Source: Porphyra umbilicalis
Taxonomy: Eukaryota > Rhodophyta > Bangiophyceae > Bangiales > Bangiaceae
Length of the DNA: 64,000 bases
Reading direction: 5' to 3'
Assembly: GCA_002049455.2 (NCBI GenBank)
Contig: KV918892.1
Location: 62,001 to 126,000 of the forward strand
Shown: positions 31,068 to 58,141 of the stretch, piece by piece
How the letters are laid out: each line of letters begins with the position of its first letter
Numbering within the stretch: the first letter of the stretch is position 1
Program-made: the position numbers and the translations under genes
The notes under the pieces: generated by a model
The model's input: the letters and a program-made list of their open reading frames with translations, nothing else
What the model was told of the DNA's origin: nothing
The model's database searches: none

Positions 31068-32317
31068 GTCTAGTTGCTGTCTCTGGCATCCTGTCTGGGT
31101 TTCTATCTTGCTGCATTTTTTATATTTCGCTCCTTTTTTTCCTTTTCTCGTGTCCCGTGCACGGCTTCGCGTCGCCGACATTGCCCGCTCTCACTCACAG
31201 GCAACAGTTCCTCCCATACCTCCCCGCGCCATGGTCAAACTATGGAACCCCAACCACTTGGTGGCGAGGTGGTGTGGCCGGGGTAGCGAGCGGCTCGTTC
31301 CCCGCACGTACAGTACCCTCCTCATTGACAGATAAAAAAAGCACGTCACCGAGCGAGTTCGACCAAGCTTGCGGTCGCGGGCTCGTTCCCATCAGCGACG
31401 ACCCTAGCCGTAGTTTGCACAGTACCCTCATGGCGCCGCCCTGGGCCGCTCCACGTGCCCGTGAGGCCATTGACAGCGGAGGCGGTGCCTCATTCCGCTC
31501 GCTCTCAGCGCCGCGTGCGGGTCGCATTGCACACCTTGCGACCCGAAATCCAGACCAGAACGGTTCTCCTGCAGCGATAGGGCAATTTTACTGGGCGACT
31601 GATGAAAACGGATGCACAGACCGTCTACACAACGCCGCTCTGCTACGATGACTGTACAAGCTGACGACAACGAAGACCTCGTTTGCCGGCAGCGCAGTCA
31701 TCCTGTCAGGCGTACTTCGATTCCTGTGACACACTCAGTAGTACTAGAATGATTCGACAACCTTGGCAAACCGCTTCGACCCTGCTGAGGGCCAACCGAG
31801 GACACCAACAACTACGCTGATCATGCAATTTTCTGAACTAGATCCGCTGCTGGTGCGCAGTGGTCTACCATAAATACTGTAACTCTGAGAGTTCGACTGC
31901 TGCGTGATGATGGAGGTCCATTGATCTGGGCGCTGGTGTCCGGTGCAAGTTCTATCCTACGCTCTGCATGCCACGGGGGACCCTCCGGAAAGGTGCACTT
32001 TGATCAGTCAGAATGCGGTGTCATTCCAAGGCTTATGAAACCCCAGGGTCAGATTCTTGCGAAGGGGCGCTGACTGCCAGCGAACCAGGTGGTAGCCGTT
32101 CGGCGCCCCGACGGGAGCTGCGCGCGGGCGCAGCCACACAACGTGCGAAGGCCCGATTGATCGACGCCGGCGTGCATGGCGCCCGTGGGGGCCCACAGTG
32201 TGTGCGCGTGCCACACACCCCTCTAGGGCGCATCCTGAGGCGGTTCGCCGTCGGCGGCGGCGCGCCGCACCCTCCAGCGGCCGCGCCAGAACGGTTTCGC
32301 GCCCGCACCGTCCGCGC

Positions 32318-32702
32318 TGTAGCATATCTCTGCTACCAATTGGCAATTAGCCACGGGTAGCCCCCTTGACTGGCCGAATCCACGGATGTTTGTGACTCGG
32401 CTTGTGGCACGCCCTTTGGGGGGTTACTTCCGCATTGTTTATTTTTTATTGCTTGCCTGTCTTATCTGTCTGCCGGCACTCATTACGATCGCTTGATCGG
32501 ATGGTCGATCGACCAGTGCCGTTGTTTGTATTAAACCACCGTGGGTCCGGGGACGCCGTCGTGGGCACCACCCGGCTCCCCATCGGATGCCCTTCAACAA
32601 AAGGTCTTCTTCCTCGCCGCGACGGCGATAGGACTCGCTTTATTGCTTGGCTACGGTCGGTCTCAGTACACTGGTAATTGAACTAACGTTATTAATACCA
32701 CA
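32318..32702 (+). repeat. chromovirus copy 1 5' LTR
   Basis: 385 bp, beginning TGTAGCATATC and ending ATACCACA (TG...CA ends). The only difference seen from the 3' LTR is a T/G at about 32,391. The LTR contains TATTTTTTATTG (about 32,440) and CGATCGCTTGATCGGATGGT with palindromic CGATCG motifs. Transcription start and polyadenylation must lie within, but I cannot place them. Confidence 0.95.
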
Positions 32703-32704
32703 TT

Positions 32705-32722
32705 TGGTGGAGCAGCAGGGGA
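32705..32722 (+). promoter_or_regulatory. chromovirus primer-binding site
   Basis: TGGTGGAGCAGCAGGGGA starts two bases after the 5' LTR. Its complement ends GCTCCACCA, a plausible tRNA 3' end with CCA. The tRNA species is not identified. The same sequence follows the LTRs at 60335 and, on the minus strand, 50145. Confidence 0.65.
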
Positions 32723-32931
32723 TACCCTCGCCTTCATCGTGCCTTGCGGCACGGTGTCCCCGAGAACTTTCTCGCTGCCTCGTGGCATTATGACGGTGTC
32801 GATACGGTCGTTTGGCGCGCGGGGCGTAAGCCATCGACTTGTGGGCGTGGTGCCGGGGGCATCACGGTTGAGATCTCCGACGTTGGCGCGCAGGGCGTAA
32901 GCCAAGTCGGAACACTTGTTCAGGTCCCAGT

Positions 32932-34575
32932 ATGTCTACTGGTGGTACCGGCGGCACTCGGCGAGCCAGAGACGGCAAGTTGCCATCTGGCTACCGGCCG
33001 CCGGGCGGGGGACAAGGCACTCCTGCCGCCTCCGACGCCCCCACGGACGGTGCTCCAACTCCTCCCATCCCTGCGGATCAAGCCGCCTCTGGGCAGATGC
33101 AGGTGGTGGAGAGCCTGAAGGCGGCCGTTGAAGCACTTCAGCGACGCCTAACGGCCCAAGAACAGACTAACGAGTCTCTGGCGCGAGCCAATGACAAGTT
33201 GGTCGACGACGTCGAGGCCCTGCGCAAGGTCGACTCCCATGAGGAGGAACGCCGTGTGGCTAAGTCTCGCCGCCAGTCGGGCGACAAGACCAAGGACGTC
33301 AAGAAGACGAACAAGGTGATCAAGGACAAGTCCGTCCGCAAGGACGCTCCGGCTAACGCCGCGCCTTCCTCATCTTCCGACGATTCCGCGTCTGGGTCAA
33401 GCCCGACGTCGTCAGACGACGACAACAACGCGACGGACACGTCCTCTTCGGACGATGGCCACGGGCCCCCACACCCGCCGTCGCCCCCAAGTGGGTCCTC
33501 GCCGAGCGAAAGCTCGAGCGAGTCGGACGCGGCCGCGCGCAAGCGCCCGACGCCCCCCACCAAACGGAAGGAGCGACTTGAAAAAGCCGATAGGATCAAG
33601 GTGATCCGCCCGGCTAATAGCCGCTTCAAGGCCCTCCTGGACTACAGGACGTACTTCCTGATCCGCCGTCAATTGACGTATACGCCTAAAGAGGCACAGC
33701 GGTCGCACCGTCTCAACAAACGTTTAGACGGAGCGTTCCATGGGCAACAGCCATTCACGGGAGCCCTGCCCTTGGGCATCTTCACGTTCTTGACGACCTT
33801 TCGCCGCGCGTGCGACGCGGCTGGGCTGACGCACGGTCAAGCCCTCCCGCTTATGGTCTTTCGACTAGCCGGCAACGCCAAGATGGCCTTCTCCGGCGCG
33901 CTTAACAGCACCCTTGGACGTAAGCGTTACGCCATCCGTACCTACGGAGATGCCGTCAACTGGCTTCTTTCGAAGTATGCGACACACGCAACCATGGCTA
34001 ACGCCTATCAAGACATCATTACGATGAAGCAACAAGACAACGAGGCGCCCACGGCCTTTGGCCATCGCGTGGAAACGCAATGCGACCTCCTGAACGGTTT
34101 GTTCGACATCCAAGACGTTAAGGACGTCTTCATCACTGGTCTTTCGGACCTTGTGCAAGCGCACGTACGGGTACTGAACGACCAGTTCCCCGACCGAACC
34201 CTGTCTGAGACGGTCGCCACCGCCCAGATGTATTGGGACGGTACGAACAAGTTGCGTTCGCAACTCAAGATTACCCGCCCAACGGCGATCAAAGTCGCTT
34301 ACGCGACACAAGACCAGCGGACGACGACGGAACGACCGTTCACACCGGTTCGCACCCCTCCGCCCCCTCGGGCTGCCGTCCCTCAAGCCAATCGGGCTGA
34401 CATCTGTTACAACTGTAACAAGCCGGGGCACTTCGCCGCACAGTGTGCCGAGCCTTATCGCCCTCGCGAGCGTCGGCAACCGCCTATCGGCGTTCATGCC
34501 CTTGCCGACGGTAACGTCGAGGAAGACGAAGTCGATCATCCGGCCGACGCCGTGGACGACTCGAAAAACGTCTAG
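32932..34575 (+). CDS. chromovirus Gag (copy 1)
   Basis: 547-codon frame starting MSTGGTGGTRRARDG, 229 bp after the LTR. A coiled-coil-like segment (about residues 60-100, VEALQRRLTAQEQTNESLA) is followed by a Lys-rich and then Ser/Asp-rich spacer. The capsid-like part (about 225-450) has YFLIRRQLTYTPKEAQRS, GALPLGIFTFLTTFRRACDA and AYQDIITMKQQDNEAPTAFG, typical of Ty3/gypsy Gag. It ends with one CCHC knuckle, CYNCNKPGHFAAQC (about 488-501). Pol begins six bases after the stop in another frame, as is common in the family, where pol is made by frameshift or readthrough. Confidence 0.93.
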   Translation: MSTGGTGGTRRARDGKLPSGYRPPGGGQGTPAASDAPTDGAPTPPIPADQAASGQMQVVESLKAAVEALQRRLTAQEQTNESLARANDKLVDDVEALRKVDSHEEERRVAKSRRQSGDKTKDVKKTNKVIKDKSVRKDAPANAAPSSSSDDSASGSSPTSSDDDNNATDTSSSDDGHGPPHPPSPPSGSSPSESSSESDAAARKRPTPPTKRKERLEKADRIKVIRPANSRFKALLDYRTYFLIRRQLTYTPKEAQRSHRLNKRLDGAFHGQQPFTGALPLGIFTFLTTFRRACDAAGLTHGQALPLMVFRLAGNAKMAFSGALNSTLGRKRYAIRTYGDAVNWLLSKYATHATMANAYQDIITMKQQDNEAPTAFGHRVETQCDLLNGLFDIQDVKDVFITGLSDLVQAHVRVLNDQFPDRTLSETVATAQMYWDGTNKLRSQLKITRPTAIKVAYATQDQRTTTERPFTPVRTPPPPRAAVPQANRADICYNCNKPGHFAAQCAEPYRPRERRQPPIGVHALADGNVEEDEVDHPADAVDDSKNV

Positions 34576-34580
34576 GCCGG

Positions 34581-37500
34581 GTGCCCGACTTGGGGTTGCC
34601 CGGCGGAACGCGAAAGCGTACGGTGACAAGACTCTTACGTCGTGCCCTTCGGCACTATGAGATCGCAGCCACGTTAGGCCCATGCCTGCGCATAATGCGA
34701 AGTTGCCGCCCTGTCTTAGACACGGGCGCCGGGGTGAACATAGTGCGAACTAGTGTTCTCCCTTCGAACTGGATGGCTTACGCCGAAGAGTTGACTACGC
34801 TTCCGCGCATCCGAGATGCAAACAACAATCGTCTTGTGACGAAGTATGCCATACATCTGTATGTAGACACCGGAGGTGTGCGTCTATTTGACCGATTCCT
34901 CGTTGCCGACAACTTGTCAGTCCCGTGCATTCTTGGCACCGAGTTCATTGAACAAAACATCGAGGGCATTCTGCCGCGCTTGCGCAAGATCGTCTGGCAA
35001 GAGCACGTGCGATGCACGGAAGAGCAACCTCGGCCAACGCCGATCTTAGCTTGTCTTAACGACAGCGCGTGGGACCGCCACTGGCAAGATAAACCCGCTC
35101 GGGTTCGAGCCTGCAAACAGGTGCGTGTCAACGGACACAAGGAGGAGTGGATCATGGCCACGTGCGACACGCCTGGTATGGTTACCATCACACCGAACAT
35201 TCGGTTGTGCCGACACAAGTCAATGGCAGTCGCCCGCGGCATCGCCATCGTCAAACCGGACGAACCATTCCTGGTCAAGTTATGCAACTTCGGCAAGGAC
35301 CAAGTCATTGTTCGCAAGAACTCTACCTTGGGGTTTGCGGAACCCTACCAAGGGCCGATGCTTTCCGCCGTCTTGGATGACAACACCCCAAAGGGTGGAA
35401 CCGATAACTCATCGGACGACGCGAGTCGTGACCCACTCGAGGACCTCGACCTCAGTGAGGCACCCGAGTACCTGCACAAGCAGATTCGAGACATGCTGAA
35501 GACGCATTCGTCTATGTGGGATGGAACCCTTGGCGTCATCCGTGCTACGGAGCACGCCATCGTCACTCCTCCCGACGCCCAGCCCATACGGGCCCAACCC
35601 TACCGCACCGGGCCGTTCAAACGGCAGATCATCGCTGATCAGATCAACAAGATGTTGAAGCTCAACGTCATTGCCCCTAGCCATAGTGCTTGGGCAAGCC
35701 CCGTGGTAATTGTACCCAAGAAGAACGGCAAAGCCCGGTTCTGTGTCGACTATCGTCGGTTAAACAACATCACCAAGAAGGATGCTTATCCCTTGCCTCG
35801 GATGGAGGACTGCCTCGACTCCTTGGGAGATGCCCATGTGCTCACGTCTCTCGACTGCACCGCGGGGTACTGGCAAGTACCCTTACGCAAGGACGACCAA
35901 GAGAAGACGGCGTTCACGACGCACTGTGGTATATACCACTGGTTATCCATGCCTTTCGGCTTGACGAACGCGCCCGCTACCTTCCAGCGCGCGTTGGATA
36001 TTATCCTCTCCGGTTTGAAGTGGCAGATATGCCTCGTCTACTTAGACGATGTCATCATCTTCTCCGCAAACGCGGAACAACACGTCAAAGACGTTGACAC
36101 GGTTCTTCACCGTCTCCGCGAAGCCGGGGTCACCCTCAACTTGGAAAAGTGCACGTGGTTCTCCGATGAGGTCGAGTACCTAGGACACATTGTCCGCCCC
36201 GGGCAACTGCACGTGCACAACAAGAACGTGGATGCTCTGAAGCATGCCAAGTTCCCAACCACAAAGACCCAGCTGAAAAGCTTCTTGGGCATGTGCAACG
36301 TCTATCGACGGTTTGTCAAAGACTTTGCCAAACGAGCAAAGCCCCTGAACGCCCTGAATAGGGCCGAGATCCCATCGGATTTACCACCACCGACGGACGT
36401 GGCTATCGCCGCCTTCGAGGACCTTCGCAACGCACTGTTGTGCCCACCGGTACTTGCCTTGCCGAAGGCCAATCGGAAGCTCGTCGTTGACGTGGACGCC
36501 TGCGCCGACCAAGTTGGTTGTACCCTCCTCCAAGAGGAGCCGGGCGAACTGCTTCACCCTGTCGGGTATTGGAGCCGAGGACTCACTGCTGCAGAGCAAA
36601 ACTACTCCACCACGGAGCGAGAATGCCTCGGCGTTGTGTGGGCTGTCCTCAAGTTGAGGCACTTCCTCGACGGACAACGCTTCCTCATCCGAACGGATCA
36701 CCAAGCACTTAGCTGGATCTACAGCACGACCGACTCAAGCGGACGCTTGATGCGATGGCGACTTCGCCTCTCCGAATACACATTCGATATGGTTTATAAA
36801 CCAGGTGCATCGCACCACTTGCCCGACTTCCTGTCGCGCGCCTCTACGGTGGCGCCGCCAGAAGATATCCATGATGATATACCTTGTCTGGCATTGGCCG
36901 AGACGGCCAACGGCTTAAGAACGGGGAGGTACATGGGTACCGACACACCGGAACCGGTGGAGTTCGACGACGTTGTCGAAGCACAACAAACAGACGACTT
37001 CTGCGTCGAGATGTCCACTCGCGTGGAGCGCGGAACGGCCAAGGCCTTCTTCCGCGATGAGCATCACGCTCTGTACCGCCGTGCGCCTTACGGCAAACAA
37101 TTGGTTATTCCAAAGTCGCTACGCGAACGCGTGTTGACCCTCGAGCACCACGCAACCGTGGCCGCCCATCCTGGTATGAACCGGATGTATTACACCATGC
37201 GCAAGGCATACTACTGGCCTTCAATGGTGACGGATATTCATTCGACCATCACCAAGTGCACAACGTGTGCGCAAAATCGCCTCGCCTTGCGGCGACACAC
37301 CACGCCCTTGACCCTGTTCCAGGCTACCGAGCCTCTCACGGAGCTATCCGTTGACATCTTTGGGCCCATCCCGGCCTCCAAGAAGGGCAACCGCTTCATC
37401 TTGGTTATCACCGACCGCTTCGCCAAGCTCACCAAGTGCGTCGCCTTGCGGCGAATCACGGCTATGTCAGTGGCGTCAGCCATCATCGACGCGTGGGTGT

Positions 37501-39044
37501 CAGCCTACGGGCCACCGGACCGAATCCTATTGGACCAAGGGCCCCAATTCATGTCGAACTTCTTCATCGCTGTGATGAAAATGCTTGGCATTGAAACGGT
37601 TCGCACCACGGCGTATCATCCCCAAACCAATGGGCAAGTTGAACGGTACAACCGTACCATGGCTACGCAGCTGCGACACTACGTCGCCGACGATCCATCA
37701 CGATGGGATGAGCTACTCCCGGTAATCACCATGGCGTATAATAGCCAACCACATCGGTCGACGGGCATCGCCCCCTTTGAGCTTGTTATCCCAAGGCGGA
37801 TCCCCAACCTCACGGTTCGCAACTTGCCCCCGGGCACTCCGCTTACCAATAAGGGAACGCTCAAGGATGGGTCACCCCTAGCTCGCAAGCGCGAGTTCAT
37901 GGCCCGCCTGCGCAAGCAGATCCCCATCGTGGTCGAGGCCTTGCGTAAGACGCAACAACGTTACAAACGTAACTTCGACCATCGGGTCGCAACCCGCAAT
38001 GCGGACGTCAAGATCGGCGACTACGTATACACGACCAACCACGACCGGCAAAACAAGCTGCAAAGCAAAGCCATTGGACCCTTCGTGGTCGTCGACGCGG
38101 ACGCGGACGCCTCCACGTTCGTCATTGACATTGACGGCGAGGAGAAACGCGTCAGCAGTGACCATGTCACCCCCGCTCGTCGTCCAACGACGACGGACAA
38201 GGTTCCACACCCCTTGCTAGATGGTCTAGACCAACTCAAGTCAACCCCGGCACCTGCCGATGAGTATGTGATCGACAAACTCCTAGGCTTACGCCAGACG
38301 GGTGACAGCTATAGCGCTAAGGTGCGCTGGTTCGACTACGGGTCGAAAGAAGACACCTGGGAACCCCTGGAGAACCTCCCCCGCAACCTGGTGGTGCGTT
38401 TCCTTCGACAGAAGAAGAAGCATGTACCGGGGTACGAGTGGCAAACGCCAACGCGACGAAGTCGCCGACAGGCCGGGCTCACAACCGTGGCCAACATCGT
38501 CATGGACTCCACGTGGATACCCACTATCCAACATGTCCATGTTACCGGTGACGGAGTTATCCATGCCGATGTCTCTTGGACAGAGTCAATTACCGACGTT
38601 GCAATTAAGGAAGTAATTCCTGTGGCGTGGCTCAAGTCCACTCTGCCGTCCATGACGCGCAACTTTGCGTATGACCCCCAACTTGCCTTGCGGCATTTCT
38701 CTCGGCTGAACCGTGTTTACGGCCCGTACACATATGTGTGGCCGAAATCCGCACAGGCGACACTGATCGGGAGCGATCCCCCCGTACCAGTGCTCCCCAA
38801 CGGGTTTCTGGTACCTCCGGTGCAACACTTGGACTCAGTCCTTCGACGCTTGGTAACAACCACAGAAGAAGCAACCGTGGTAATACCACAATGGACCAAC
38901 GCCAGTTGGTACGCTACTGCCATACGTGCATGTTTCGAGTACGAAGTGATTTTATCAGCAGACTCAAGGGATACAAATCCCACAACATGGGCCATGATGG
39001 CCTGCCACTTCCTTCATCGCTATGACGATAAGCAGAAAAACTGA
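34581..39044 (+). CDS. chromovirus Pol with chromodomain and C-terminal extension (copy 1)
   Basis: About 1,487 codons, uninterrupted. In order: aspartic protease VLDTGAGVNIV (about 34,717); reverse transcriptase with FCVDYRRLNNIT, SLDCTAGYWQVPL and YLDDVIIFS (about 35,690-36,070); RNase H with VVDVDACADQVG and TDHQALSWI (about 36,480-36,720); integrase with an HHCC finger (HHATVAAHPGMNRM ... CTTCAQN) and DDE core (DIFGPIPAS, LLDQGPQF, NGQVERYNRT; about 37,145-37,790); chromodomain DEYVIDKLLGLRQTGDSYSA through DTWEPLENLP (about 38,258-38,440). About 200 further residues follow, including HVTGDGVIHADVSW and IPQWTNASWYATAIRAC, which I cannot assign. The frame opens without an ATG just after Gag, fitting synthesis as a Gag-Pol fusion. 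Confidence 0.95.
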   Translation: MPDLGLPGGTRKRTVTRLLRRALRHYEIAATLGPCLRIMRSCRPVLDTGAGVNIVRTSVLPSNWMAYAEELTTLPRIRDANNNRLVTKYAIHLYVDTGGVRLFDRFLVADNLSVPCILGTEFIEQNIEGILPRLRKIVWQEHVRCTEEQPRPTPILACLNDSAWDRHWQDKPARVRACKQVRVNGHKEEWIMATCDTPGMVTITPNIRLCRHKSMAVARGIAIVKPDEPFLVKLCNFGKDQVIVRKNSTLGFAEPYQGPMLSAVLDDNTPKGGTDNSSDDASRDPLEDLDLSEAPEYLHKQIRDMLKTHSSMWDGTLGVIRATEHAIVTPPDAQPIRAQPYRTGPFKRQIIADQINKMLKLNVIAPSHSAWASPVVIVPKKNGKARFCVDYRRLNNITKKDAYPLPRMEDCLDSLGDAHVLTSLDCTAGYWQVPLRKDDQEKTAFTTHCGIYHWLSMPFGLTNAPATFQRALDIILSGLKWQICLVYLDDVIIFSANAEQHVKDVDTVLHRLREAGVTLNLEKCTWFSDEVEYLGHIVRPGQLHVHNKNVDALKHAKFPTTKTQLKSFLGMCNVYRRFVKDFAKRAKPLNALNRAEIPSDLPPPTDVAIAAFEDLRNALLCPPVLALPKANRKLVVDVDACADQVGCTLLQEEPGELLHPVGYWSRGLTAAEQNYSTTERECLGVVWAVLKLRHFLDGQRFLIRTDHQALSWIYSTTDSSGRLMRWRLRLSEYTFDMVYKPGASHHLPDFLSRASTVAPPEDIHDDIPCLALAETANGLRTGRYMGTDTPEPVEFDDVVEAQQTDDFCVEMSTRVERGTAKAFFRDEHHALYRRAPYGKQLVIPKSLRERVLTLEHHATVAAHPGMNRMYYTMRKAYYWPSMVTDIHSTITKCTTCAQNRLALRRHTTPLTLFQATEPLTELSVDIFGPIPASKKGNRFILVITDRFAKLTKCVALRRITAMSVASAIIDAWVSAYGPPDRILLDQGPQFMSNFFIAVMKMLGIETVRTTAYHPQTNGQVERYNRTMATQLRHYVADDPSRWDELLPVITMAYNSQPHRSTGIAPFELVIPRRIPNLTVRNLPPGTPLTNKGTLKDGSPLARKREFMARLRKQIPIVVEALRKTQQRYKRNFDHRVATRNADVKIGDYVYTTNHDRQNKLQSKAIGPFVVVDADADASTFVIDIDGEEKRVSSDHVTPARRPTTTDKVPHPLLDGLDQLKSTPAPADEYVIDKLLGLRQTGDSYSAKVRWFDYGSKEDTWEPLENLPRNLVVRFLRQKKKHVPGYEWQTPTRRSRRQAGLTTVANIVMDSTWIPTIQHVHVTGDGVIHADVSWTESITDVAIKEVIPVAWLKSTLPSMTRNFAYDPQLALRHFSRLNRVYGPYTYVWPKSAQATLIGSDPPVPVLPNGFLVPPVQHLDSVLRRLVTTTEEATVVIPQWTNASWYATAIRACFEYEVILSADSRDTNPTTWAMMACHFLHRYDDKQKN

Positions 39045-39185
39045 GAAGTGGATACGAACATGTCAAACGACAAACAACAACAAGACGAAGAAACATCAAC
39101 ACCCTGAAAGGCGTAAGACCCCGACATTGTCAACCCCACCCCCCCACCGGGGTCAACCGAGCAAGTCACTGAGCAGTGAGCCTCG

Positions 39186-41144
39186 CTACTCCTCGTCGTC
39201 ACGACGACGCGAGTCCCGACGGGAATCGCGGCTCGCGCCAACACTGGCCGCCGACTCCTGCGAGACACTACGCGCACGCGTGTTGCGCGCCGAGTGCGGA
39301 ACCCCCGTCGACGGGCCTCCGCCCTCGTGGGTCCGACGACCAAGGATGCTCTGCGCGTTGAAGCGCGCCGGCGCGGCCTCCTCCTCTGGCTGTATAGCCT
39401 CGAGGTGCTGGGCGAAGTGCCCGTAGTTGGCTTCGCCGTCAACGGCGCGAGCCACGGCATGTCCAATAATGGACAAAGCCGACTCGACACCCCGTCCGTC
39501 CGCGCGCTCAACAGCGGTACGCAAGCCTGCGATCTGCTCGACCCAGGCGCTAGCCACCGCCGACAAGGCTGCCCCGCGGGGCGCGCGAACGCGTACATCG
39601 CGCGCGCGCGCCGACTCAAACAAGGCAACCGCCGCGGTTGACGACGCGCGGGTCGGCCAAGTGGCATCCACCGACCGTGGCGGAGAGGGCGAGCGATCGC
39701 GCCGCGGTGAACGCGGGCGGTAGCGGCCCTCGCGGGCGTCGGCAACGGCGTGAGCCCAGGTCCGACGACCACGACGCCACACCCCGGGATGGTTCTTAGT
39801 AATTCGAGCCATCGGGAGTGGCGCGTTCGGGTCCAACGCCCAGTCGAAATCGACACAAGGGTGGCGCAGGCAAAAGCCGTACTCCTCGGTTGGGTCGACC
39901 GTGATCCGCACCTGCCGGGCTTCCCCGGAGTCGCGGTCGCGCCAGACGACGTCCTTCAGGACCTCCCGCCAGGGAAACGCCGTCACGGCTTGACGCATCT
40001 TGCCGTACAAGACGTACTTGGCCTCGCCGTCGGGCGCGTCCTTCAACTTGGACGTATCCAACGCGTCGAAATGACGAAGCGTCTTCGTGTCCAAGTGGAC
40101 GAAGAGCTTGTCCTCCTGCAGGGTGTCAACCCACGCAGCAACTAAGTTGCAGTAGTACTCGGAGTACACCTCCTGCCAGACGGAGCTGTAGGCGTTGCGC
40201 AACGCGTCCGCCATGTAAGACACCACCACGGGGGTCGCCACCCACAACCCCGTGTGGGGCTCCCAGTCCGGGATAGGCGGAAGCCAACGGGACAAGTCGA
40301 ACGCCCGTGGCGCACGGAGAAATCCAGCCGCCCACGCGGTAGGCATCAACTCGCGACCGCGAAAGAAGCGCGCGTCAGCGGCCCGACGGTGGTCGGAGGG
40401 GAACATCGGCAGCCGAAAGGGGTTCGGCAACCCGGTGACCCGCGGACTGCGGTCATCTTCGACATTGTCGTTCTCCTCGTGCTTCACCAGCGCGAGCTGC
40501 TCGAGGTACGGCTCCAGACCGGAGTCGTGCCCGAAAGGGACCGAAAGGTCCTCGGCGAGAGCCCTCTTGAGGAAGACGGCCTTCGGCCAGTTGCGCAACA
40601 AGCGACAAAACGAGTTGGCCGCTGCCTCGATCGACTCTGTACCCTTCACAGGGAACATAAGCGCATTGGCGTACACCAAGCGGTGGAACGGGTGCAACGG
40701 CAGTTGGTACCGCACGACCTCGTTGCAAAACGACATCACCTCGTATACACGACGCTGAGGTCCCTGGTTCCCGAAGTACGGGTCCCCATGGACCTCGGCC
40801 ACGCGGTCGCCCGCGTGGTCCGGCGACCCGGCTTGCGCCATCACGTCGATGAAGTCGGGCAACGCCTCGTAGTGAGCGTACACACGGCGCGTGTGCGCAC
40901 GAGCGCGATTGCGTACGCACATCTCGTGCAGACGGTTGTCGGTGACCCGCGGGACCCCATCGACCACCTCTACAGGGTTGGCGTGCACGTAGTACGAGCC
41001 GCGAGGCCGAAACTGGCGCAAGACCTCTGGGTCCGCGGAGCAATCCACTTCCGGATGGCCACCCGCGGCGGCATGCGCCCCGCCGATGGCCTCACCGCCA
41101 CCGGCAACGCCGCCGTCCACCGCCATCGCGGCGGAATCCGCCAT
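39186..41144 (-). CDS. Conserved antisense ORF of the chromovirus (copy 1), unknown function
   Basis: 652 codons on the strand opposite to gag and pol, ATG at 41144 (MADSAAMAVDGG), ending 141 bp from the pol stop, tail to tail. The frame is also open upstream through a Gly/Ala/Lys-rich repeat. The central part looks like a folded protein: VLRQFRPRGSYYVHANPVEV, RRVYEVMSFCNEVVRYQLPL, NWPKAVFLKRALAEDLSVPF, DLSRWLPPIPDWEPHTGLWV, WQEVYSEYYCNLVAAWVDTL, EYGFCLRHPCVDFDWALDPN. The C-terminal third is Arg/Ser-rich (RYRPRSPRRDRSPSPPRS) with a helical block (AWVEQIAGLRTAVERAD) and an acidic end, RDDEE. The same protein is encoded by the older copy at 51581-53704. No Pfam-type motif recognised; it is neither envelope-like (no signal peptide or membrane helix seen) nor Gag-like (no knuckle). 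Confidence 0.8.
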   Translation of the reverse strand: MADSAAMAVDGGVAGGGEAIGGAHAAAGGHPEVDCSADPEVLRQFRPRGSYYVHANPVEVVDGVPRVTDNRLHEMCVRNRARAHTRRVYAHYEALPDFIDVMAQAGSPDHAGDRVAEVHGDPYFGNQGPQRRVYEVMSFCNEVVRYQLPLHPFHRLVYANALMFPVKGTESIEAAANSFCRLLRNWPKAVFLKRALAEDLSVPFGHDSGLEPYLEQLALVKHEENDNVEDDRSPRVTGLPNPFRLPMFPSDHRRAADARFFRGRELMPTAWAAGFLRAPRAFDLSRWLPPIPDWEPHTGLWVATPVVVSYMADALRNAYSSVWQEVYSEYYCNLVAAWVDTLQEDKLFVHLDTKTLRHFDALDTSKLKDAPDGEAKYVLYGKMRQAVTAFPWREVLKDVVWRDRDSGEARQVRITVDPTEEYGFCLRHPCVDFDWALDPNAPLPMARITKNHPGVWRRGRRTWAHAVADAREGRYRPRSPRRDRSPSPPRSVDATWPTRASSTAAVALFESARARDVRVRAPRGAALSAVASAWVEQIAGLRTAVERADGRGVESALSIIGHAVARAVDGEANYGHFAQHLEAIQPEEEAAPARFNAQSILGRRTHEGGGPSTGVPHSARNTRARSVSQESAASVGASRDSRRDSRRRDDEE

Positions 41145-42082
41145 CGCGTTGGTCGTCCGGGGGGTGTTTATCCTGGCCGTCGCCGCCGGGCTGGCCGCGC
41201 TTGCCGCCCTTGCCGCCGTCGCCGCCGGGCTGGCCGCGCTTGCCGCCCTTGCCGCCGCGCTCGCCGCCCTTGCCGCCGGGCTTGCCGCCTTGCCGCCGTG
41301 CGCGCCGCCCCCCCACTCGGCGCAAACCCACACTCACCGGGCCCAACACCTCGCGGTGTGCCGCCTTGCGGCGACGGACCCCTACTCAACCTTGCCGTTA
41401 GGCAGCGACCTGTGCGCAAGCACGAAGACACGGAATGGCCCCGTGCCGGTAACAACGCGAACCCGCACCCCGGCTTCCGCCGTGTCGTCGGGGGAGTCAA
41501 CACCCCGACGAGGGCGACGCCTGCCGGCACAACGACAACCAGCTGGCGCTACCCCGCGCGCCCGACTCGGTGCTAACCGGCCTGGAGGTGTGAACCCCAC
41601 ACCCACGCTCGGCACCACGGACCCGCGTCCCGGCTTTCGCCGTGTCGTCGGGGTAGTCAAACCCCCGACGAAGGAAGCGCCACTCGGCGCCGACGACGGT
41701 TGTCCCAACGCGTGTTGCTCGACGCACCCGCGCACCAACGGGTCTTAACCCCGACGCTGGTCGCCTGTCAACCGGCCGTCTGGCCACCACACCGACGCCG
41801 ACGCCGACTCCCCTGCGAGGGCGCGCGTACGCGCAAGCGCCGGTCGGATCCGCAGCGCCAGCTGCCCGCCACCCACGCCCACGCGTGTGTGGCGGGACGG
41901 TCGCGACCGACGACGGCGAACCGCCACCTCCCCCCAATCGGGACTGGGCGGCGCGCCCCCCCCACGGCTCCCACCGCCTGGGCGGTTGCGCCCGCGCGGG
42001 CCCGTAAGGGGCCGCGATCGCCCAATCGGGTTTCACCATCCTCGGATCTCACCGGGACGGTTCGAATCTCGCGTTGGAGATA
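41145..42082. other. chromovirus region between antisense ORF and 3' LTR, with duplicated hairpin
   Basis: GC-rich. 41,175-41,300 is a GCC/TTG-type repeat (Gly/Lys-coding on the minus strand). Two hairpins with identical 9-bp stems, TCGTCGGGG paired with CCCCGACGA around a 9-base loop containing AGTCAA, lie at 41485-41511 and 41645-41671, each preceded by a CCGGCTTnCGCCGTG block. The interval must contain the antisense ORF promoter. It ends CGGTTCGAATCTCGCGTTGG before the LTR. Corresponding sequence exists in copy 2 (50538-51580). Confidence 0.75.
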
Positions 42083-42467
42083 TGTAGCATATCTCTGCTA
42101 CCAATTGGCAATTAGCCACGGGTAGCCCCCTTGACTGGCCGAATCCACGGATGTGTGTGACTCGGCTTGTGGCACGCCCTTTGGGGGGTTACTTCCGCAT
42201 TGTTTATTTTTTATTGCTTGCCTGTCTTATCTGTCTGCCGGCACTCATTACGATCGCTTGATCGGATGGTCGATCGACCAGTGCCGTTGTTTGTATTAAA
42301 CCACCGTGGGTCCGGGGACGCCGTCGTGGGCACCACCCGGCTCCCCATCGGATGCCCTTCAACAAAAGGTCTTCTTCCTCGCCGCGACGGCGATAGGACT
42401 CGCTTTATTGCTTGGCTACGGTCGGTCTCAGTACACTGGTAATTGAACTAACGTTATTAATACCACA
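42083..42467 (+). repeat. chromovirus copy 1 3' LTR
   Basis: 385 bp, same as 32318-32702 apart from one base by eye, followed by the CGCGC target duplication at 42468-42472. Confidence 0.95.
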
Positions 42468-43381
42468 CGCGCACCGACCTCTGTGTGCACAGGGTGCGTG
42501 TGAGCTCGTCGCGTGTGCGTGCGACAGCCCCCTTCTGGACACACAACGAGCAGTGTACCATCGGCGGGCGGGCGCCGAGCCCCCCCTCAATGGCCGCGCC
42601 ACGCGGGTTCGGCACCCGTGGTGCCCGACCCACCCATCCATGCGTACATGCCGCTCGTGAGGGGGGGGATCGAAGGCAGTCTGCACGCGATTGCGCACCG
42701 TGTGGACCTGCGATCACGGACTGCAGCTCACCACCCTGCTTTCACCACAGAGAGGAGCGCGCTCGTTTCTGTCTCGCTTGCTGTTCGTGTTGTGCTGGCT
42801 CCGCGCGCGTTGCCAGTCACGTCTTGGCTGCTGTCCATGCTCATCGTGGCAAATTCTTGACGTCTGCTGGCGCGCGCGCGTGGGTGTGGGCGCGTGCGGC
42901 GTCCACACGTCGCTTGGTGTGCTCCTCTCTTTGTGCACGCCTTTTTCTTATGCCACATACGACCGACTACATCGGCGTCCCCGTTCGTCCACGACGCTCC
43001 TCCTCATTTGCCCCCCCCCCCCCCCCCCCTTCACACCACGTGCGCCACCGCAACGGCCGCGTTTCTTGCGTGCTGTCACCCATCTACTGCCCCGTTCGTG
43101 CATCGACAACAACTTTGTGGCCGACGCCTGCCACGGCAGCGGTCACATCTTCTCCTTCTTCTCGATTGCCCCTACCTGATGGTGGCAAGCGGGCCTGGTG
43201 CAAGACGATTGAGTGTCGGTCAAGGCGGCGCGTGCGCCAGGACCTGAGGAGTGTCGAGTGGTTGAGTTTGTGTTGGATTATTCTTGTGCGGCCGCATTAT
43301 TGGCGTGTGCTTGTGGTGAGAGTGGTTTCCGGGGAGACTACGTGCGCAGGAGTGGAGTGGTGTCGAGTACGTCACACCACG
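42468..43381. other. Spacer upstream of the Harbinger-side gene
   Basis: About 0.9 kb with a poly-C run at about 43,010-43,028. The downstream frame is open back to 42,485, but the sequence before 43,382 has overlapping open frames and no motif, so I treat it as promoter/5' leader. No separate gene supported. Confidence 0.45.
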
Positions 43382-50055: not shown

Positions 50056-50144
50056 ACAATGCTACGAGGCAGCGAGAAAGTTCTCGGGAACACCGTGCCG
50101 CGAGGCACGATGAAGGAGAGGGTATCCCCTTCTGCTCCACCAAA
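50056..50144 (-). mobile_element. Detached leader and primer site of the reverse chromovirus
   Basis: Reverse complement of a chromovirus leader: primer site TGGTGGAGCAGAAGGGGATA next to the LTR at 50145, continuing to CCTCGTAGCATTGT. It stops at ACAAT (plus strand 50056-50060). The rest of the same leader resumes at 59939 with ACAAT repeated, so the break is a 5-bp target duplication caused by insertion of another copy. Confidence 0.8.
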
Positions 50145-50537
50145 GGTGGTATTAATTTCGTTGGTTCGATTACCAGTGTATTAGGACCGACCGAAGCCAA
50201 GCAATTAAGCGCGTTCTATCGGCGTCGCGGCGAGGAAGAAAGATCTTTTGTTGAAGGGCATCCGATGGGGAGCCGGGTGGCGCCCACGACGGCGACCCCG
50301 GACCCACGGTGATTTAATACAAACGAGGGCACCGGTCGATCGACCGTCCGATCACAAGCGATCGTAATGAGTGCCGGCAGTCAGATAAGACAGGCAAGCA
50401 AACAAACAATAAAATGAACAATGCGGAAGTAACTTCCCAAAGGGCGTGCGACAGGCCAATTCCCACAATACATGGGCTTTGGTCAGTCAAGGGGCTACTT
50501 GTGGCCAATTGCGAATTGGGAGCAGGGATATGCTACA
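50145..50537 (-). repeat. chromovirus copy 2 LTR (reverse)
   Basis: 393 bp in reverse orientation, TGTAGCATATC at the 50537 end. It lies between the element's 3' non-coding region (50538 onward) and a primer-binding site with leader (50144 downward), so it has the neighbours of both a 3' and a 5' LTR. Confidence 0.9.
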
Positions 50538-51580: not shown

Positions 51581-53704
51581 ATGGCGGACTCGGCCGCGAT
51601 GGCGGTGGACGGCGGCGTTGCCGATGGCGGGGTGGTCATCGACGGGGCGCATGCCGCCGCGGGGGGCCATCCGGAAGTGGATTGCTCCACGGACCCGGAG
51701 GTCTTGCGCCAAGTTGGGCCTTGCGGCTCGTACTACGCACACGCGGAACCTGTTGAGGTGGTTAATGGGGTCCCGCGGGTCAGCGACAACCGTCTGTACG
51801 ACATGTGCGTGCGCAACCGCGCTCGTGCGCACACGCGTCATGTATGCGCACAGTACGAGGCGTTGCCCGACTTCGTTGACGTGATGGCGCAAGCCGGGTT
51901 GCCGGACCACGCGGGCGACCGCGTGGCCGAGGTCCATGGGGACCCGTACTTTGGAAACCAGGGCCCCCAGCGTCGTGTATACGAGGTGATGTCGTTTTGC
52001 AACGAGGTCTTGCGCTACCAAGTGCCTTTGCACCCGCTTCACCGCTTCGTTAACGCCAATGCGCTTCTGATCCCTGTGAAGGTTACAAAGACGATCGAGG
52101 CGGCGGCCAAATCATTTCGCCGCTTGTTGCGCAACTGGCCGAAGGCCGTCTTCCTCAAGCGGGCTCTCGCCGAGGACCTTTCGGTCCCGTTCGGGCACGA
52201 CTCCGGCCTGGAGCCGTACCTCGAGCAGCTCGCGCTGGTGAAGCACGATCTGAACGACGACGTCGAGGAAGATCGCAGTCCGCGTGTCACCAGATTGCCG
52301 AACCCCTTCCGGTTGCCGATGTTTCCATCCGACCACCGTCGGGCCGCCGACACGCGCTCCTTTCGCGGTCGCGAGTTGATGCCCACCGCGTGTGCGGCTG
52401 GATTTCTCCGTGCGCCACGGACGTTCGACTTGTCCCGTTGGCTGCCGCCTATCCCGGCATGGGAGCCTCACACGGGGTTGTGGGTGGGGACCTCCGTAGT
52501 GGTATCGTACCTGGCGGATGCGTTGCGCAACGCCTACAGCTCAGTCTGGCAGGAGGTGTACTCCGAGTACTACTGCAACTTAGTTGCTGCGTGGGTTCAC
52601 ACCCTACAGGAGGACAAGCTCTTCTTACACTTGGACGATAGGACGCTTCGTCATTTCGACGTGTTGGACACGTCCAAGTTTAGCGCGCCCGACGGCGAGG
52701 CCAAGTACGTCTTGTACGGCAAGATGCGTCAGGCCGTGAAGGCGATTCCCTGGCGGGAGGTCCTTAAGGACGTTGTCTGGCGCGACCGCGACTCCGGGGA
52801 AGCCCGTCAGGTGCAAATCACGGTCGACCCGACCAAGGAGTACGGCTTTTGCCTTCGTCACCCTTGTGTAGATTTCGACTGGGCGTTGGACCCGAACGCG
52901 CCACTCCCGATGGCTCGAACCACTTCGCGCCACCCCGGGGTGTGGCGCCGTGGTCGTCGGAAATGGGCTCACGCCGTTGGCGACGCCCGAGAAGGCCGCT
53001 ACCGCCCGCGTTCGCCGCAGCGCGATCGCTCGCCGTCTCCGCCCCGGGCGATGGATGCCACTTGGGCGACCCGCGCGTCTTCCTCCGCGGCGGTTGCCTT
53101 GTTTGGGTCGGCGCCCGCGCGCGATGTACGCGCTCGCGCGCCCCGTGGGGCAGCCTTGTCGGCGGTGGCTAACGCCTGGGTCGAGCAGATCGCGGGCCTG
53201 CGGACCGCTGTTGAGCGCGCGGACGGACGGGGTGTTGAGTCGGCTTTGTCCATCATTGGACAGGCCGTGGCTCGCGCCGTTGACGGCGATGCCAACTACG
53301 GGCGATTCGCCCAGCACCTCGAGGCTATCCAGCCAGAGGAGGAGACAACGCCGGCGCGTTTCAACGCGCAGAGCATCCTTGGTCGTCGGACCCATGACGG
53401 CGGGGGCCCGTCGACGGGACCTCCGCACTCGGCGCGCAACACGCGTGCGCGTAGTGTCTCGCAGAAGTCGGCGGCCAGTGTTGGCGCTTACCGCGATTCC
53501 AGCCGGGACTCGCTTCGTCGTGACGAGGAGGAGGAGAAGCGAGGTTCACTGTTCAGTGACTTGCTCGGCAGACCCCGGTTGGGGGGGCGGTTGCCGATGT
53601 CGGGGGCTTACGCCTTTCAGGGTGTTGATGTTTCTTCGTCTTGTTGTTGTTTGTCGTTTGACATGTTTGTATCCACTTTTCAGTTTTTCTGTTCATCGTC
53701 ATAG
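51581..53704 (+). CDS. Conserved antisense ORF of the chromovirus (copy 2)
   Basis: An open frame from the ATG at 51581 (MADSAAMAVDGGVADGG) is homologous along its length to the minus-strand ORF of copy 1. Matching blocks include HPEVDCSTDPEVLRQ, QGPQRRVYEVMSFCNEV, NWPKAVFLKRALAEDLSVPF, SVWQEVYSEYYCNLVAAWVH, EYGFCLRHPCVDFDWALDPN and SALSIIGQAVARAVDGDANY. The frame stays open although gag and pol of the same element are broken repeatedly, and most differences from copy 1 look conservative (for example D/E, V/L, K/R). It overlaps the end of the copy 2 pol region on the opposite strand. Function unknown. Confidence 0.75.
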   Translation: MADSAAMAVDGGVADGGVVIDGAHAAAGGHPEVDCSTDPEVLRQVGPCGSYYAHAEPVEVVNGVPRVSDNRLYDMCVRNRARAHTRHVCAQYEALPDFVDVMAQAGLPDHAGDRVAEVHGDPYFGNQGPQRRVYEVMSFCNEVLRYQVPLHPLHRFVNANALLIPVKVTKTIEAAAKSFRRLLRNWPKAVFLKRALAEDLSVPFGHDSGLEPYLEQLALVKHDLNDDVEEDRSPRVTRLPNPFRLPMFPSDHRRAADTRSFRGRELMPTACAAGFLRAPRTFDLSRWLPPIPAWEPHTGLWVGTSVVVSYLADALRNAYSSVWQEVYSEYYCNLVAAWVHTLQEDKLFLHLDDRTLRHFDVLDTSKFSAPDGEAKYVLYGKMRQAVKAIPWREVLKDVVWRDRDSGEARQVQITVDPTKEYGFCLRHPCVDFDWALDPNAPLPMARTTSRHPGVWRRGRRKWAHAVGDAREGRYRPRSPQRDRSPSPPRAMDATWATRASSSAAVALFGSAPARDVRARAPRGAALSAVANAWVEQIAGLRTAVERADGRGVESALSIIGQAVARAVDGDANYGRFAQHLEAIQPEEETTPARFNAQSILGRRTHDGGGPSTGPPHSARNTRARSVSQKSAASVGAYRDSSRDSLRRDEEEEKRGSLFSDLLGRPRLGGRLPMSGAYAFQGVDVSSSCCCLSFDMFVSTFQFFCSSS

Positions 53705-56700
53705 CGATGAAGGAAGTGGCAGGCCATCATGGCCCATGTTGTGGGCTTTGTATCCCTTGCGTCTGCTGATAAAAACACTTCGTACTCGAAACATGCGCGT
53801 ACGGCGGTAGCGTACCAACTGGTGTTGGTCCATTGTGGTGTGACCACGGTTGCTTCCTCTGTGGTTGTCACCAAGCGTCGAAGGACTGAGTCCAAGTGTT
53901 GTACCGGGGGTACCAGAAACCCGTTGGGGAGAACTGGTACAGAGGAATCGCTCCCGATCAGTGTCGCCTGCGCGGATTTCGGCCATACATGTGTGTACGG
54001 GCCGTAAATACGGTTCAGCCGAGGGAAATGCCGCAAGGCAAGTCGGGGGTCATACGAAAAGTTGCGCGTCATGGACGGCAGAGTGGACTTGAGACACGCG
54101 ACAGGAAGTACTTCCTTAATTGCGGCGGCTGTACTTGAATCTGTCCACGAGACGTCGGCATGGATAACTCCGTCACCGGTAACATGGACATGTTGGATAG
54201 TGGGTATCCACGTGGGGTCCATGACGATGTTGGCCACGGTTGTGAGCCCGGCCTGTCGGCGACTTCGTCGCGTTGGCGTTTGCCACTCGTACCCCGGTAC
54301 ATGCTTCTTCTTCTGCCGAAGAAATGGCACCACCAGGTTCTGGGGGAGATTCTCCAGGGGTTCCCAGGTGTCTTCTTTCGACCCGTAGTCGAACCAGTGC
54401 ACCTTAGCGCTGTAGCTGCCGCCAGTCTGGCGTAAGCCTAGAAGTTTGTCAACCACATACTCATCGGCAGTTGCCAGGGGTGGCTTGCGTTGGTCAAGAC
54501 CATCTAGCACGGGGTGTGCAACCGTGTTCGTTGTCGTTGGACGAGGAGCTGGGGTGACATGGTCACTGCTGACACGTTTTTCCTCGCCGTCAATGTTAAT
54601 GACAAACGTGGAGGCGTCCGCGTCTGCGTCAATGACCACGAAGGGTCCAATGGCTTTGCTTTGCAGCTTGTTTTGCCCATCGTGGTTGGTCGTGTATACG
54701 TAGTGGCCGATCTGGACGTCCGCATTGCGGGTTGCAACCCGATGTTCGAAGTCACGTTTGTAACGTTGTTACGTCTTACGCAAGGCCTCGACTACGATGG
54801 GGATCTGCTTGCGCAGGCGGGCCATGAACTCGCGTTTGCGAGCTAGGGGTGACCCGTCCTTGAGCGTTCCTTTATTGGTAAGCGGAGTGCCCGGGGGCAA
54901 GTTGCGAACCGTGGGGTTGGGGATCCGCCTTGGGATAACGAGCTCAAATGGAGCGATACCCGTTGACCGGTGTGGTTGGCTATTATATGCCATGGTGATT
55001 TCCGAGAGTAGCTCGTCCCATCGTGATGCGTCGTCGGCGACGTAGTGTCGCAGCTGAGTAGCCATGGTACGGTTGTAACGTTCAACTTGCCCATTGGTTT
55101 GGGGATGATACGCCGTGGTGCGAACCGTTTCAATGCCAAGCATTTTCATCACAGCGATGAAGAAGTTCGACATGAACTGGGGCCCTTGGTCCAATAGGAT
55201 CCGGGCCGGTGGCCCGTAGGCTGACACCCACGCGTCGATGATGGCTGACGCCACGGACATGGCCGTGATTCGCCGCAAGGCGACGCACTTGGTGAGCTTG
55301 GCGAAGCGGTCGGTGATAACCTAGATGAAGCGGTTGCCCTTCTTGGAGGCCGGGATGGGCCCAAAGATGTCAACGGACAGCTCCGTGAGAGGCTCGGTTG
55401 CCTGGAACAGGGTCAAGGGCGTGGTGCGTCGCCGCAAGGCGAGGCGATTTTGCGCACACGTTGTGCACTTGGTGATGGTCGAATGAATATCCGTCACCAT
55501 TGAAGGCCAGTAGTATGCCTTACGCATTGTGTAATACATCCGGTTCATACCAGGATGGGCGGCCACGGTTGCGTGGTGCTCGAGGGTCAACACGCATTCG
55601 CGTAGAGACTTTGGAATAACCAGTTGATTGCCGTAAGGCGCACGGCGGTACAGAGCGTGATGCTCATCGCGGAAGTGGGTCTTCGCCGTTCCGAGTTCGA
55701 CACGTTTGGTCATTGCGACACAATAGTCGTCCGTTTGTTGAGCTTCAACAACGTCGTTGAATTCCACCGGTTCGGGTGTGTCGGTACCCGTGTACCTCCC
55801 CGTCATCAAGCCGTTGGCCGTCTCGGCCAATGCCAGGCACGGTATATCATCGTGGATATCGTCTGGCGGCGCCACCGTAGAGGCGCGCGACAGGAAGTCC
55901 GGCAAGGTGTGCGATGCACCTGGTTTATGAACCATATCGAATGTGTATTCGGAAAGGCGAATTCGCCACCGCATCAAGCGTCCGCTTGAGTCGGTCGTGC
56001 TGTAGATCCAGCTAAGTGCTTGGTGATCCGTTCTGATGAGGAACCGTTGTCCGTCGAGGAAGTGCCTCAACTTGAGGACAGCCCATACGACGCCGAGGCA
56101 TTCTCGCTCCGTGGTGGAGTAGTTTTGCTCTGCAGCAGTGAGTCCTCGGCTCCAATATCCGACAGGATGAAGCAGTTCGCTCGGTTCCTCCTGGAGGAGG
56201 GTACAACCACCTTGGTCAGCGCATGCGTCAACGTCGACGACGAGCTTCCGATTGGCCTTTGGAAAGGCAAGTACCGGTGGGCACAATAGTGCGTTTCGAA
56301 GGTCTTCGAATGCGGCGATAGCCACGTCCGTTGGTGGTGGTAGATCCGGTGGGATCTCGGCCCTAGTCAGGGCGTTCAGGGGCTTTGCTCGTTTGGCAAA
56401 GTTCTTGACAAAACGTCGATACACGTTGCACATGCCCAAGAAGCTTTTCAGCTGGGTCTTTGTAGTTGGGAACTTGGCATGCTTCAGAGCATCCACGTTC
56501 TTGTTGTGCACGTGCAGTTGCCCGGGGCGGACAATGTGTCCGAGGTAGTCGACCTCATCGGAGAACCACGTGCACTTTTCCAAGTTGAGGGTAACCTCGG
56601 CTTCGCGGAGACGGTGAAGAACCGTGTCAACGTCTTTGACGTGTTGTTCCGCGTTGGCGGAGAAAATGATGACATCGTCTAATTAGACAAGGCATATCTG

Positions 56701-58141
56701 CCACTTCAAGCACGAGAGGATAATATCCAACGCGCGCTGAAAGGTAGCGGGCGCGTTCTTCAAGCCGAAAGGCATGGATAACCAGTGATATATACCACAA
56801 TGCGTTGTGAACGCTGTCTTCTCTTGGTCTTCCTTGCGTGAGTGTACTTGCCAGTACACCGCGGTGCGGTCGAGACGTGAACACCTGGGCATCTCCCAAG
56901 GAGTCGAGGCAGTCCTCCATCCGAGGCAAGGGATAAGCATCCTTCTTGGTGATGTTGTTTAACCGACGATAGACGACACAGAATCGGGCTTTGCCGTTCT
57001 TCTTTCGTACAATTACCGTGGGGCTTGCCCAAGCACTATGGCTAGGGGCAATGACGTTGAGCTTCAACATCTTGTTGATCTGATCAGCGATGATCTGCCG
57101 TTTGAACGGCCCGGTCCGGTAGGGTTGGGCCCGTATGGACAGGGCGTCTGGGGGAGTGACGATGGCGTGCTGCGTAGCACGGATGACGCCAAGGGTTCCA
57201 TCCCACATCGACGAATGCGTCTTGAGCATGTCTCGAATCTGCTTGTGCTGGTACTCGGGTGCCTCACTGAGGTCGAGGTCCTCGAGTGGGTCACGACTCG
57301 CGTCGTCCGATGAAGTATCGGTTCCATCTTTTGGATTGTTGTCATCCAAGACGGCGGCCAACATCGGCCCTTGGTAGGGTTCGGCAAACCCCAAGGTTGA
57401 GTTCTTGCGAACAATGACTTGGTCTTTGCCAAAGTTGCATAACTTGACTAGGAAGGGTTCGTCGGGCTTGACGATGGCAAGGCCGCGGGCGACCGCCATT
57501 GACTTATGTCGGCATAACTAAGCATTCGGTGTGATGGTAACCATACCAGGGGTGTCGCATGTGGCAATGATCCACTCCTGGTGGTGTCCGTTGACACAAA
57601 CCTGTTTACAGGCTCGTACCCTTGCGGGTTCACCTTGCCAATGGCGGTCCCAGGCACTGTCATTAAGACAAGCCAAGATCGGCGTTGGCCGAGGAAGCTC
57701 CTCCGTGCAGCGCACGTGTTCCTGCCAGACGATCTTACGCAAACGCGGCAAGATCGCCTCAATGTTTTGTTCGATAAACTCGGTGCCAAGGATGCACGGG
57801 ACTGACAAGTTGTCGGAAACGAGGAATCGGTCAAATAGACGTACACCTCCGGTGTCTACATACAGATGTGCGGCATACTTCGTCACGAGCCGATTGTTGT
57901 TTGCATCTCGGATGCGCGGAAGCGTGGTCAACTCCTCGGCTTTAGCCATCCAGTTCGCAGGGAAAACACTAGTTCGCACTATGTTCACCCCGGCGCCCGT
58001 GTCGAGTACAGATTGGCAGCTCCGCATCACAGGCATGCACGGGCCAAGCGTGGCGGCGATCTCGTAGTGCAGTAAGGCACGGCGAAACAGTTTTGTTTCC
58101 GTACGCTTTCGCGTTCCGCCGGGCAAACCCAAGTCGGGCAC
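53680..58141 (-). pseudogene. chromovirus pol region (copy 2)
   Basis: Homologous to copy 1 Pol along its length, read right to left: protease LDTGAGVNIVRTSV, reverse transcriptase, RNase H with TDHQALSWI, integrase with HHATVAAHPGMNRM and NGQVERYNRT, chromodomain DEYVVDKLLGLRQTGGSYSA, and the same about 200-residue C-terminal extension. Broken; reported as a fossil. Confidence 0.9.

Follow-up and report, generated by a model that had tools for sequence, protein, structure and literature searches.

A 652-codon open frame lies on the minus strand of an LTR retrotransposon of the red alga Porphyra umbilicalis, tail to tail with the pol gene (41144..39186, from ATG to TAG, exactly as a first reading of the sequence alone had placed it). 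The question raised by this locus is whether the frame is a gene and, if so, what it does for the element that carries it. Below, positions refer to the 64,000-nucleotide stretch of DNA that was analyzed (the window).

The element and its class

The frame belongs to copy 1, a young LTR retrotransposon (32318-42467) with 385-base LTRs that show a single difference between them. Its features are:

32313-32317 and 42468-42472: target duplication CGCGC, read directly from the sequence
32318..32702, plus strand: 5' LTR (TGTAGC...ACCACA), matching 42083-42467 at 384 of 385 bases
32932..34575, plus strand: gag, 547 codons, with a zinc knuckle (PF00098, E 4.8e-6)
34581..39044, plus strand: pol, 1487 codons, with protease, reverse transcriptase (RT), RNase H, integrase, chromodomain and a 216-residue tail
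38265..38393, plus strand: chromodomain-coding part of pol (residues 1229-1271; PF00385, 27.9 bits, cutoff 25.1)
39186..41144, minus strand: antisense gene, 652 codons, ATG to TAG, with 141 bases between its stop and the pol stop
41160..41300, plus strand: variable-number, minisatellite-like repeats immediately upstream of the antisense ATG
41485..41511: perfect 9-9-9 palindrome TCGTCGGGG-N9-CCCCGACGA, first copy
41645..41671: the same palindrome, second copy
42083..42467, plus strand: 3' LTR, paired with 32318..32702

In Pfam searches, pol matches RVT_1 (E 3.8e-38), RNase H, and the zinc-binding and core domains of integrase; the protease match (RVP, 16.2 bits) is under its cutoff of 20.7, as is the Retrotrans_gag match of gag (PF03732, 18.0 bits, cutoff 24.1). 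Two features of Ty3/gypsy chromoviruses, the order RT-RNase H-integrase and a chromodomain 3' of the integrase, are both present, and this domain order together with the chromodomain supports placing copy 1 in that group. The LTR features of chromoviruses are present as well (TG start, CA end, and 5-bp target duplications, the latter in 12 of the 17 copies with both LTRs). A distance of 0.94 kb separates the antisense ATG from the 3' LTR. A tRNA scan across the 64-kb window found no tRNA.

The antisense frame across the genome

The length of an open frame is, by itself, unconvincing here because the GC-rich window contains 45 ORFs of at least 250 amino acids; it is the substitution pattern (see below) that convinces. 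When 2000 first-order Markov sequences matched in length and composition were generated, not one stayed open in any of three frames.

We searched the assembly (83.8 Mb, 665 contigs) for relatives of the antisense protein and scored 68, all with at least 90% identity; 46 of them are stop-free, although only the best candidates were scored, which favors good copies. The best 30 of the 68 align in register over 1956 bases with no gaps, and they retain the ATG in 29 cases, the TAG in 29 and a frame with no internal stop in 24. Intact frames are over-represented in these counts because similarity to the antisense protein was the criterion for choosing the copies.

Pol-side flanks were taken for 20 of the 29 copies besides the window copy, and in all 20 of these type-A copies pol lies on the opposite strand, tail to tail with the antisense gene. 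Both LTRs were found for 17 of the 20. Given that the 5-bp flanks agree in 12 of these 17 and that LTR divergence within the flanked copies is 0-2.5%, we take the type-A copies to be independent recent insertions. As for the others, the 3' LTR is cut short in three, such that its flank is not comparable, the two LTRs of L022 apparently come from different elements, and the 5-bp flanks of L023 do not match.

The window itself holds an older relative, copy 2, with the following features:

50137..50537, minus strand: 3' LTR, 86% identical to the copy 1 LTR
51581..53533, plus strand: antisense gene, open where homologous to copy 1; the frame continues to 53704
53683..58141, minus strand: broken pol, with 4 stops and one frame break

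The sequence-only reading had described copy 2 as a member of a different LTR subfamily that keeps a homologous frame open although its gag and pol are broken. Both statements hold: the subfamily assignment follows from the 86% LTR identity, and the antisense protein is 87% identical to that of copy 1 across all 652 residues with no stops, whereas gag has 3 stops and pol is interrupted as listed.

Other elements were observed nearby. On the minus strand, no 5' LTR belonging to copy 2 is visible within the window; right behind the copy 2 gag, at 59941, stands the plus-strand LTR of copy 3, and another LTR lies at 49660-50055. Copy 3 starts at 59941 and leaves the window; its gag is 89% identical and contains 2 stops, and its pol is broken. 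The region 1756-8551 is probably another LTR element, with 99% identical repeats at 1756-2055 and 8252-8551, and between them are a 942-codon ORF (5275-8103) and a weak 27% pol match (5113-5862).

Purifying selection on the antisense gene

Two-allele variants were grouped by allele count, and the neutral ratio of nonsynonymous to synonymous variants (N:S) was obtained from random matching sites per mutation type, with CpG treated separately. Sites carrying three or more alleles were excluded (6 in gag, 20 in pol, and 10 and 12 in the antisense gene). Among 21 copies, variants of the antisense gene shared by at least two copies number 10:25 (N:S) against an expected 24.6:10.4, a ratio of 0.17, and none of 1000 simulations gave a value as low. 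Shared variants in the same number of copies yield 0.13 for gag (6:23) and 0.11 for pol (19:75), and with 30 copies the antisense value is 0.19 (16:35). Single-copy variants give 0.42 (21 copies) and 0.64 (30 copies) for the antisense gene, 0.79 for gag, and 0.59 for pol.

Shared variants read in the five remaining frames of this DNA give ratios of 1.3-3.1 in four cases and 0.43 in frame -1. We considered whether frame -1, on the opposite strand, might also be coding, and rejected this; it contains 12-20 stops and has its third positions in common with the antisense frame.

Comparisons at greater depth agree. The dN/dS of the antisense gene is 0.22 [0.17-0.27] between type A and a more divergent type (B, described below), with nonsynonymous difference lower than synonymous in all 50-codon windows except the short last one. 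Between type A and copy 2, the comparison named in the sequence-only reading as a check, it is 0.32 [0.23-0.43], which is not near 1. The antisense gene is under purifying selection. Copy 2 and C496 (the contig with the type B copy) were noticed for their open frame, and because of this we do not claim as proven that selection on the frame continued after the death of pol.

A chance open frame in GC-rich DNA, an idea to which the many long ORFs of the window lend some color, is refuted by the simulated sequences, by 36 homologous proteins at E≤1e-3, by dN/dS values well below 1, and by start and stop codons each kept in 29 of 30 copies. Judged from these sequence comparisons, the frame is a genuine gene of its element, and the proposal that a chromovirus carries a conserved antisense gene is borne out, in that the frame is found family-wide in this genome.

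The antisense protein

The 36 homologues of the first protein search include a single named one, from Pyropia vietnamensis (locus MMPV_008440; 38% identity over 83%); the remaining ones are from metagenome and ENA sources. A profile search returned 132 proteins at E≤0.1, 120 of which are among the matches listed. A search with the pol tail gave 9 proteins, including a Porphyra umbilicalis protein (70% over 30%), and among these 9 there was no pol neighbor of the Pyropia homologue. With 984 residues, the Pyropia gene model (P0035) is longer than the family, and is perhaps a fused model; its residues 620-984 weakly resemble glycosyltransferase 61 (E 0.026).

Pfam searches gave no family for the antisense protein. 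A few family members match entries at E 0.026 to 1.8, none of them above the cutoff where a cutoff was shown. Searches of PDB sequences, with the single sequence and with the profile, gave no match at E≤10, and the viral contigs scanned held no relative. TRP28 (PF04195) does not figure among the matches (E≤10) that 22 aligned proteins gave, in a search in which the HMMER filters drop most weak matches; a PF04195 search of the genome produced no signal, and the controls produced none either. HBZ of HTLV-1 is a bZIP protein and, like the protein here, the product of an antisense retroelement gene, but Pfam returned no bZIP match for the antisense protein.

The conserved core of the protein (residues ~100-430) is followed by an SR-rich basic stretch, by another conserved segment close to the C-terminus, and by an SR-rich tail:

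39645..39719, minus strand: residues 476-500 of the antisense protein, an SR-rich, basic stretch

An SR motif and the second conserved segment are retained in the 38% identical homologue. From the sequence alone the protein had been credited with a folded-looking core, an SR-rich part, and an acidic end. The core was not confirmed as folded, with low confidence in both AlphaFold predictions (pLDDT 31 and 45). The SR-rich part is there; the C-terminus, in contrast to what was claimed, is SR-rich and basic, and only its last four or five residues are acidic.

Age of the arrangement

When the Pyropia protein was used as the query, C91:116298-118013 ranked ahead of all other places (40% identity, one stop). 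The 901 bases past this homologue contain, again tail to tail, a pol end that is 41% identical to the pol of copy 1 over 250 aligned positions, with stops. The gene thus occupies the same place beside two diverged pols, and because the divergent homologue on C91 adjoins a pol end of only 41% identity, the arrangement is older than the copy 1 family. Every relative whose surroundings were read (the 20 type-A flanks, copy 2, C496, and C91) adjoins such a pol. It is a third gene of a Ty3/gypsy chromovirus clade, probably one of bangiophyte red algae.

A discordant cassette

The antisense gene of type B, represented by one copy (C496), is also tail to tail with pol, and it has a history of its own. 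Synonymous divergence (dS) between A and B is 0.20 [0.16-0.26] in gag and 0.29 [0.25-0.33] in pol, against 0.85 [0.71-1.03] in the antisense gene. The pattern is the same between B and copy 2 (gag 0.22, pol 0.24, antisense 0.83), whereas A and copy 2 differ about equally throughout (0.22, 0.20, and 0.20, respectively). In a sliding comparison of A with B, identity drops at the pol end and rises again before the LTR. The simplest reading of this discordance is recombination between elements, possibly by template switching; the alternative is a threefold synonymous rate in the antisense gene alone.

The copy on C496 (L051 and L052) is old, with 4 stops in gag, about 10 in pol, and a gap in pol. 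Its antisense frame of 658 codons is fully open, which probably reflects selection bias, given that this copy matched the query best. Among the listed B-type places (at least 79% identity to P0002), 17 of 22 have stops and five are stop-free, three of the latter at full length.

The palindromes were compared among the same elements. Both are perfect in 24 of 30 genomic copies and one is perfect in the other 6, and they are imperfect in copy 2, in type B, and in the deletion element described next. In B, the 60-base windows with palindromes (0.81, 0.70, 0.90) are unremarkable relative to other upstream windows (0.73-0.97). Given the imperfect palindromes of B, covariation of the palindromes with the gene type is not claimed.

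Amplified elements that lack most of the gene

In one element, L049, the pol end (480 codons compared) is separated from type A by a dS of 0.047, and directly after it comes a reversed remnant of the first ~88 antisense codons. Compared over 43-44 residues, the remnant shares 58% identity with type A and as much as 72% with other types. The deletion removes about 1.8 kb of the antisense gene. L049 keeps one imperfect palindrome and a longer repeat array; at 1600-3100, where the antisense gene formerly began, it has a long GC-rich repeat stretch.

A 221-base probe spanning the L049 junction hit 40 places with 95-100% identity, 37 of them at full length and three over 204-216 bases. Independently of the probe, a search with the pol end gave 89 matches, 87 of which were compared with the listed antisense matches (two pieces on C101 were omitted). 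At least 36 of the 87 have a listed antisense neighbor and 51 are without one. L049 has a slightly earlier pol end, and 36 of the 51 share it, with 30 of these 36 carrying the junction. As for the other 15, a comparison by hand showed that five do adjoin antisense matches from later searches.

On the evidence of the shared junction, elements lacking most of the antisense gene have spread, occupying no fewer than 40 places. The gene is thus not needed in cis. The deletion lineage could be borrowing the antisense protein from other elements, or the protein could be dispensable.

Antisense genes of other retroelements

That no known antisense gene resembles this one, as was thought at first, is correct for the protein and not for the architecture, which is described for the flowering-plant elements Retand, Grande, and RIRE2 and for the fungal element Boty (PMC11963269, PMC7264820). 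In the plant Ty3/gypsy elements, the antisense ORF (aORF-3R; TRP28, PF04195, in Retand and GENE23 in Grande) lies between pol and the 3' LTR, the same position and orientation as here. Tandem repeats are often reported from the same region, and the conservation of these ORFs is described as similar to that of other element proteins (PMC11963269, PMC7264820). The gene studied here is likewise conserved like gag and pol; 36 of the 87 pol ends, those with the earlier end of L049, lack a listed antisense neighbor, and for recently active Retand elements TRP28 is stated to be encoded in 97% of clusters (PMC11963269).

There are also differences. Retand is classified as a non-chromovirus and is given as occurring in eudicots and Liliopsida only (PMC11963269); the pol here has a chromodomain, and the antisense protein gave no TRP28 match with 22 aligned proteins. 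The red-algal host, the discordant cassette, and the amplified deletion lineage further set the present case apart from the plant aORF-3R genes. As far as can be seen, the antisense protein resembles the aORF-3R kind in its working and is not a member of the TRP28 family. The likeness to Boty (Botrytis, Sclerotinia) is one of description, an antisense ORF (PMC11963269, PMC7264820), and HBZ offers a further case of a nuclear protein from an antisense gene of a retroelement (PMC11963269). The accounts of antisense accessory genes in LTR retrotransposons give them neither function nor origin (PMC7264820, PMC11963269). In the open-licence literature, we found no earlier report of a red-algal, or Porphyra/Pyropia, LTR element with an antisense gene.

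What the gene may do

The best reading, to which we assign a probability of roughly 0.55, is that the gene encodes an accessory nuclear regulator expressed from its own antisense transcript, similar to aORF-3R genes and unrelated to them in sequence. Transcription would begin either within the 0.94 kb that separate the antisense ATG from the 3' LTR or inside this LTR, and the transcript would encode a protein of ~650 residues with the conserved core, the SR-rich basic part, and the second conserved segment near the C-terminus. Rather than working as an enzyme of reverse transcription, this protein would be an accessory nuclear factor that controls the expression of element DNA or RNA and serves the long-term success of the element, the likeliest forms of the role being counter-silencing or one like that of Rev or HBZ. 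Its function could be supplied in trans, or be dispensable, such that gene-deleted elements still spread. As a separable cassette, the gene could be exchanged between elements by recombination, leaving diverged gene types on near-identical gag-pol.

The SR-rich basic parts, the SR motif kept at 38% identity, and the upstream repeats and palindromes suggest a regulator with sites beside its own gene. For antisense transcription, the nuclear site, and the regulatory role, which we infer, there is a precedent by analogy in GENE23 of Grande, reported as nuclear and with its own promoter (PMC7264820). Against a regulator, strong purifying selection would be odd for a purely trans-acting product, and it implies that such a product must favor its own copy to some degree. 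The deletion lineage, moreover, may point to a dispensable protein, and with both structure predictions of low confidence there is no fold to back any role.

A special form of the regulator reading, which we entertain tentatively, is a sequence-specific anti-silencing factor by analogy with VANC of the Arabidopsis VANDAL elements. The protein would bind repeated noncoding motifs adjacent to the gene that encodes it and desilence the copies that carry them, and the cassette would diversify together with its target sites. VANC proteins are described as binding noncoding tandem repeats that diverge rapidly (PMC10398659), and here variable tandem repeats and two palindromes adjoin the gene, its cassette types are diverged, and L049, the single deletion element that was read, kept an imperfect palindrome and longer repeats while losing most of the coding sequence. 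The likeness is nevertheless in logic only (noncoding repeat targets, diversifying types): VANDALs are another element class, we detected no sequence relation to VANC, and the antisense protein is unrelated to any Pfam family. Furthermore, the palindromes are imperfect in B, where their windows are no better conserved than neighboring upstream windows.

We consider it rather unlikely that the product is a particle- or RNA-associated protein that uses its SR-rich parts and basic tail to aid packaging, export, or nuclear import. Such a factor would serve its own copy, which fits selection as strong as that on gag and pol, and the basic SR-rich parts would suit it. However, a gene antisense to the genomic RNA would be an unusual route to a structural protein, and the deletion lineage has spread without it.

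More doubtful still is a captured host gene carried as a passenger. The GC3 of the antisense gene (0.79) is above that of gag (0.71) and pol (0.67), and the C-terminal part of the long Pyropia model is weakly glycosyltransferase 61-like, both of which could point to such an origin. The sequence-only reading had left a regulator and a captured gene side by side; the latter is little supported because all relatives with read surroundings adjoin such a pol, a linkage found at two depths, and selection on the gene resembles that on gag and pol.

Finally, an antisense transcript that itself acts, through dsRNA-based self-limitation, with the frame incidental, is largely refuted by the codon pattern: although the transcript would pair with the genomic RNA, and noncoding antisense transcripts are described for micropia and TART (PMC7264820), the constraint falls on exactly this frame at several depths, and 30 copies are in register and gap-free.

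Implications

Flowering plants and fungi already provide examples of the architecture; the protein family, the host, and the dynamics are new, in particular the divergent homologue beside a 41% identical pol end, the cassette with its own history, and the recurrent deletion of ~1.8 kb. As a speculation that we would not favor on present evidence, red-algal chromoviruses may have evolved a trans-acting, sequence-specific system of control or counter-silencing independently of plants and viruses. In it, an antisense-encoded protein would act on iterated sites adjacent to its gene, cassettes would be exchanged between elements, and deletion elements would keep the sites and use the protein of others.

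A known but unexplained architecture thus recurs in a distant host and with a protein of unrelated sequence, in a case in which selection has been measured. The discordant cassette and the amplified deletion lineage make the function of the antisense gene testable, and a single genome offers the comparisons (with the gene, without it, type A, type B) through which to ask what such genes do.
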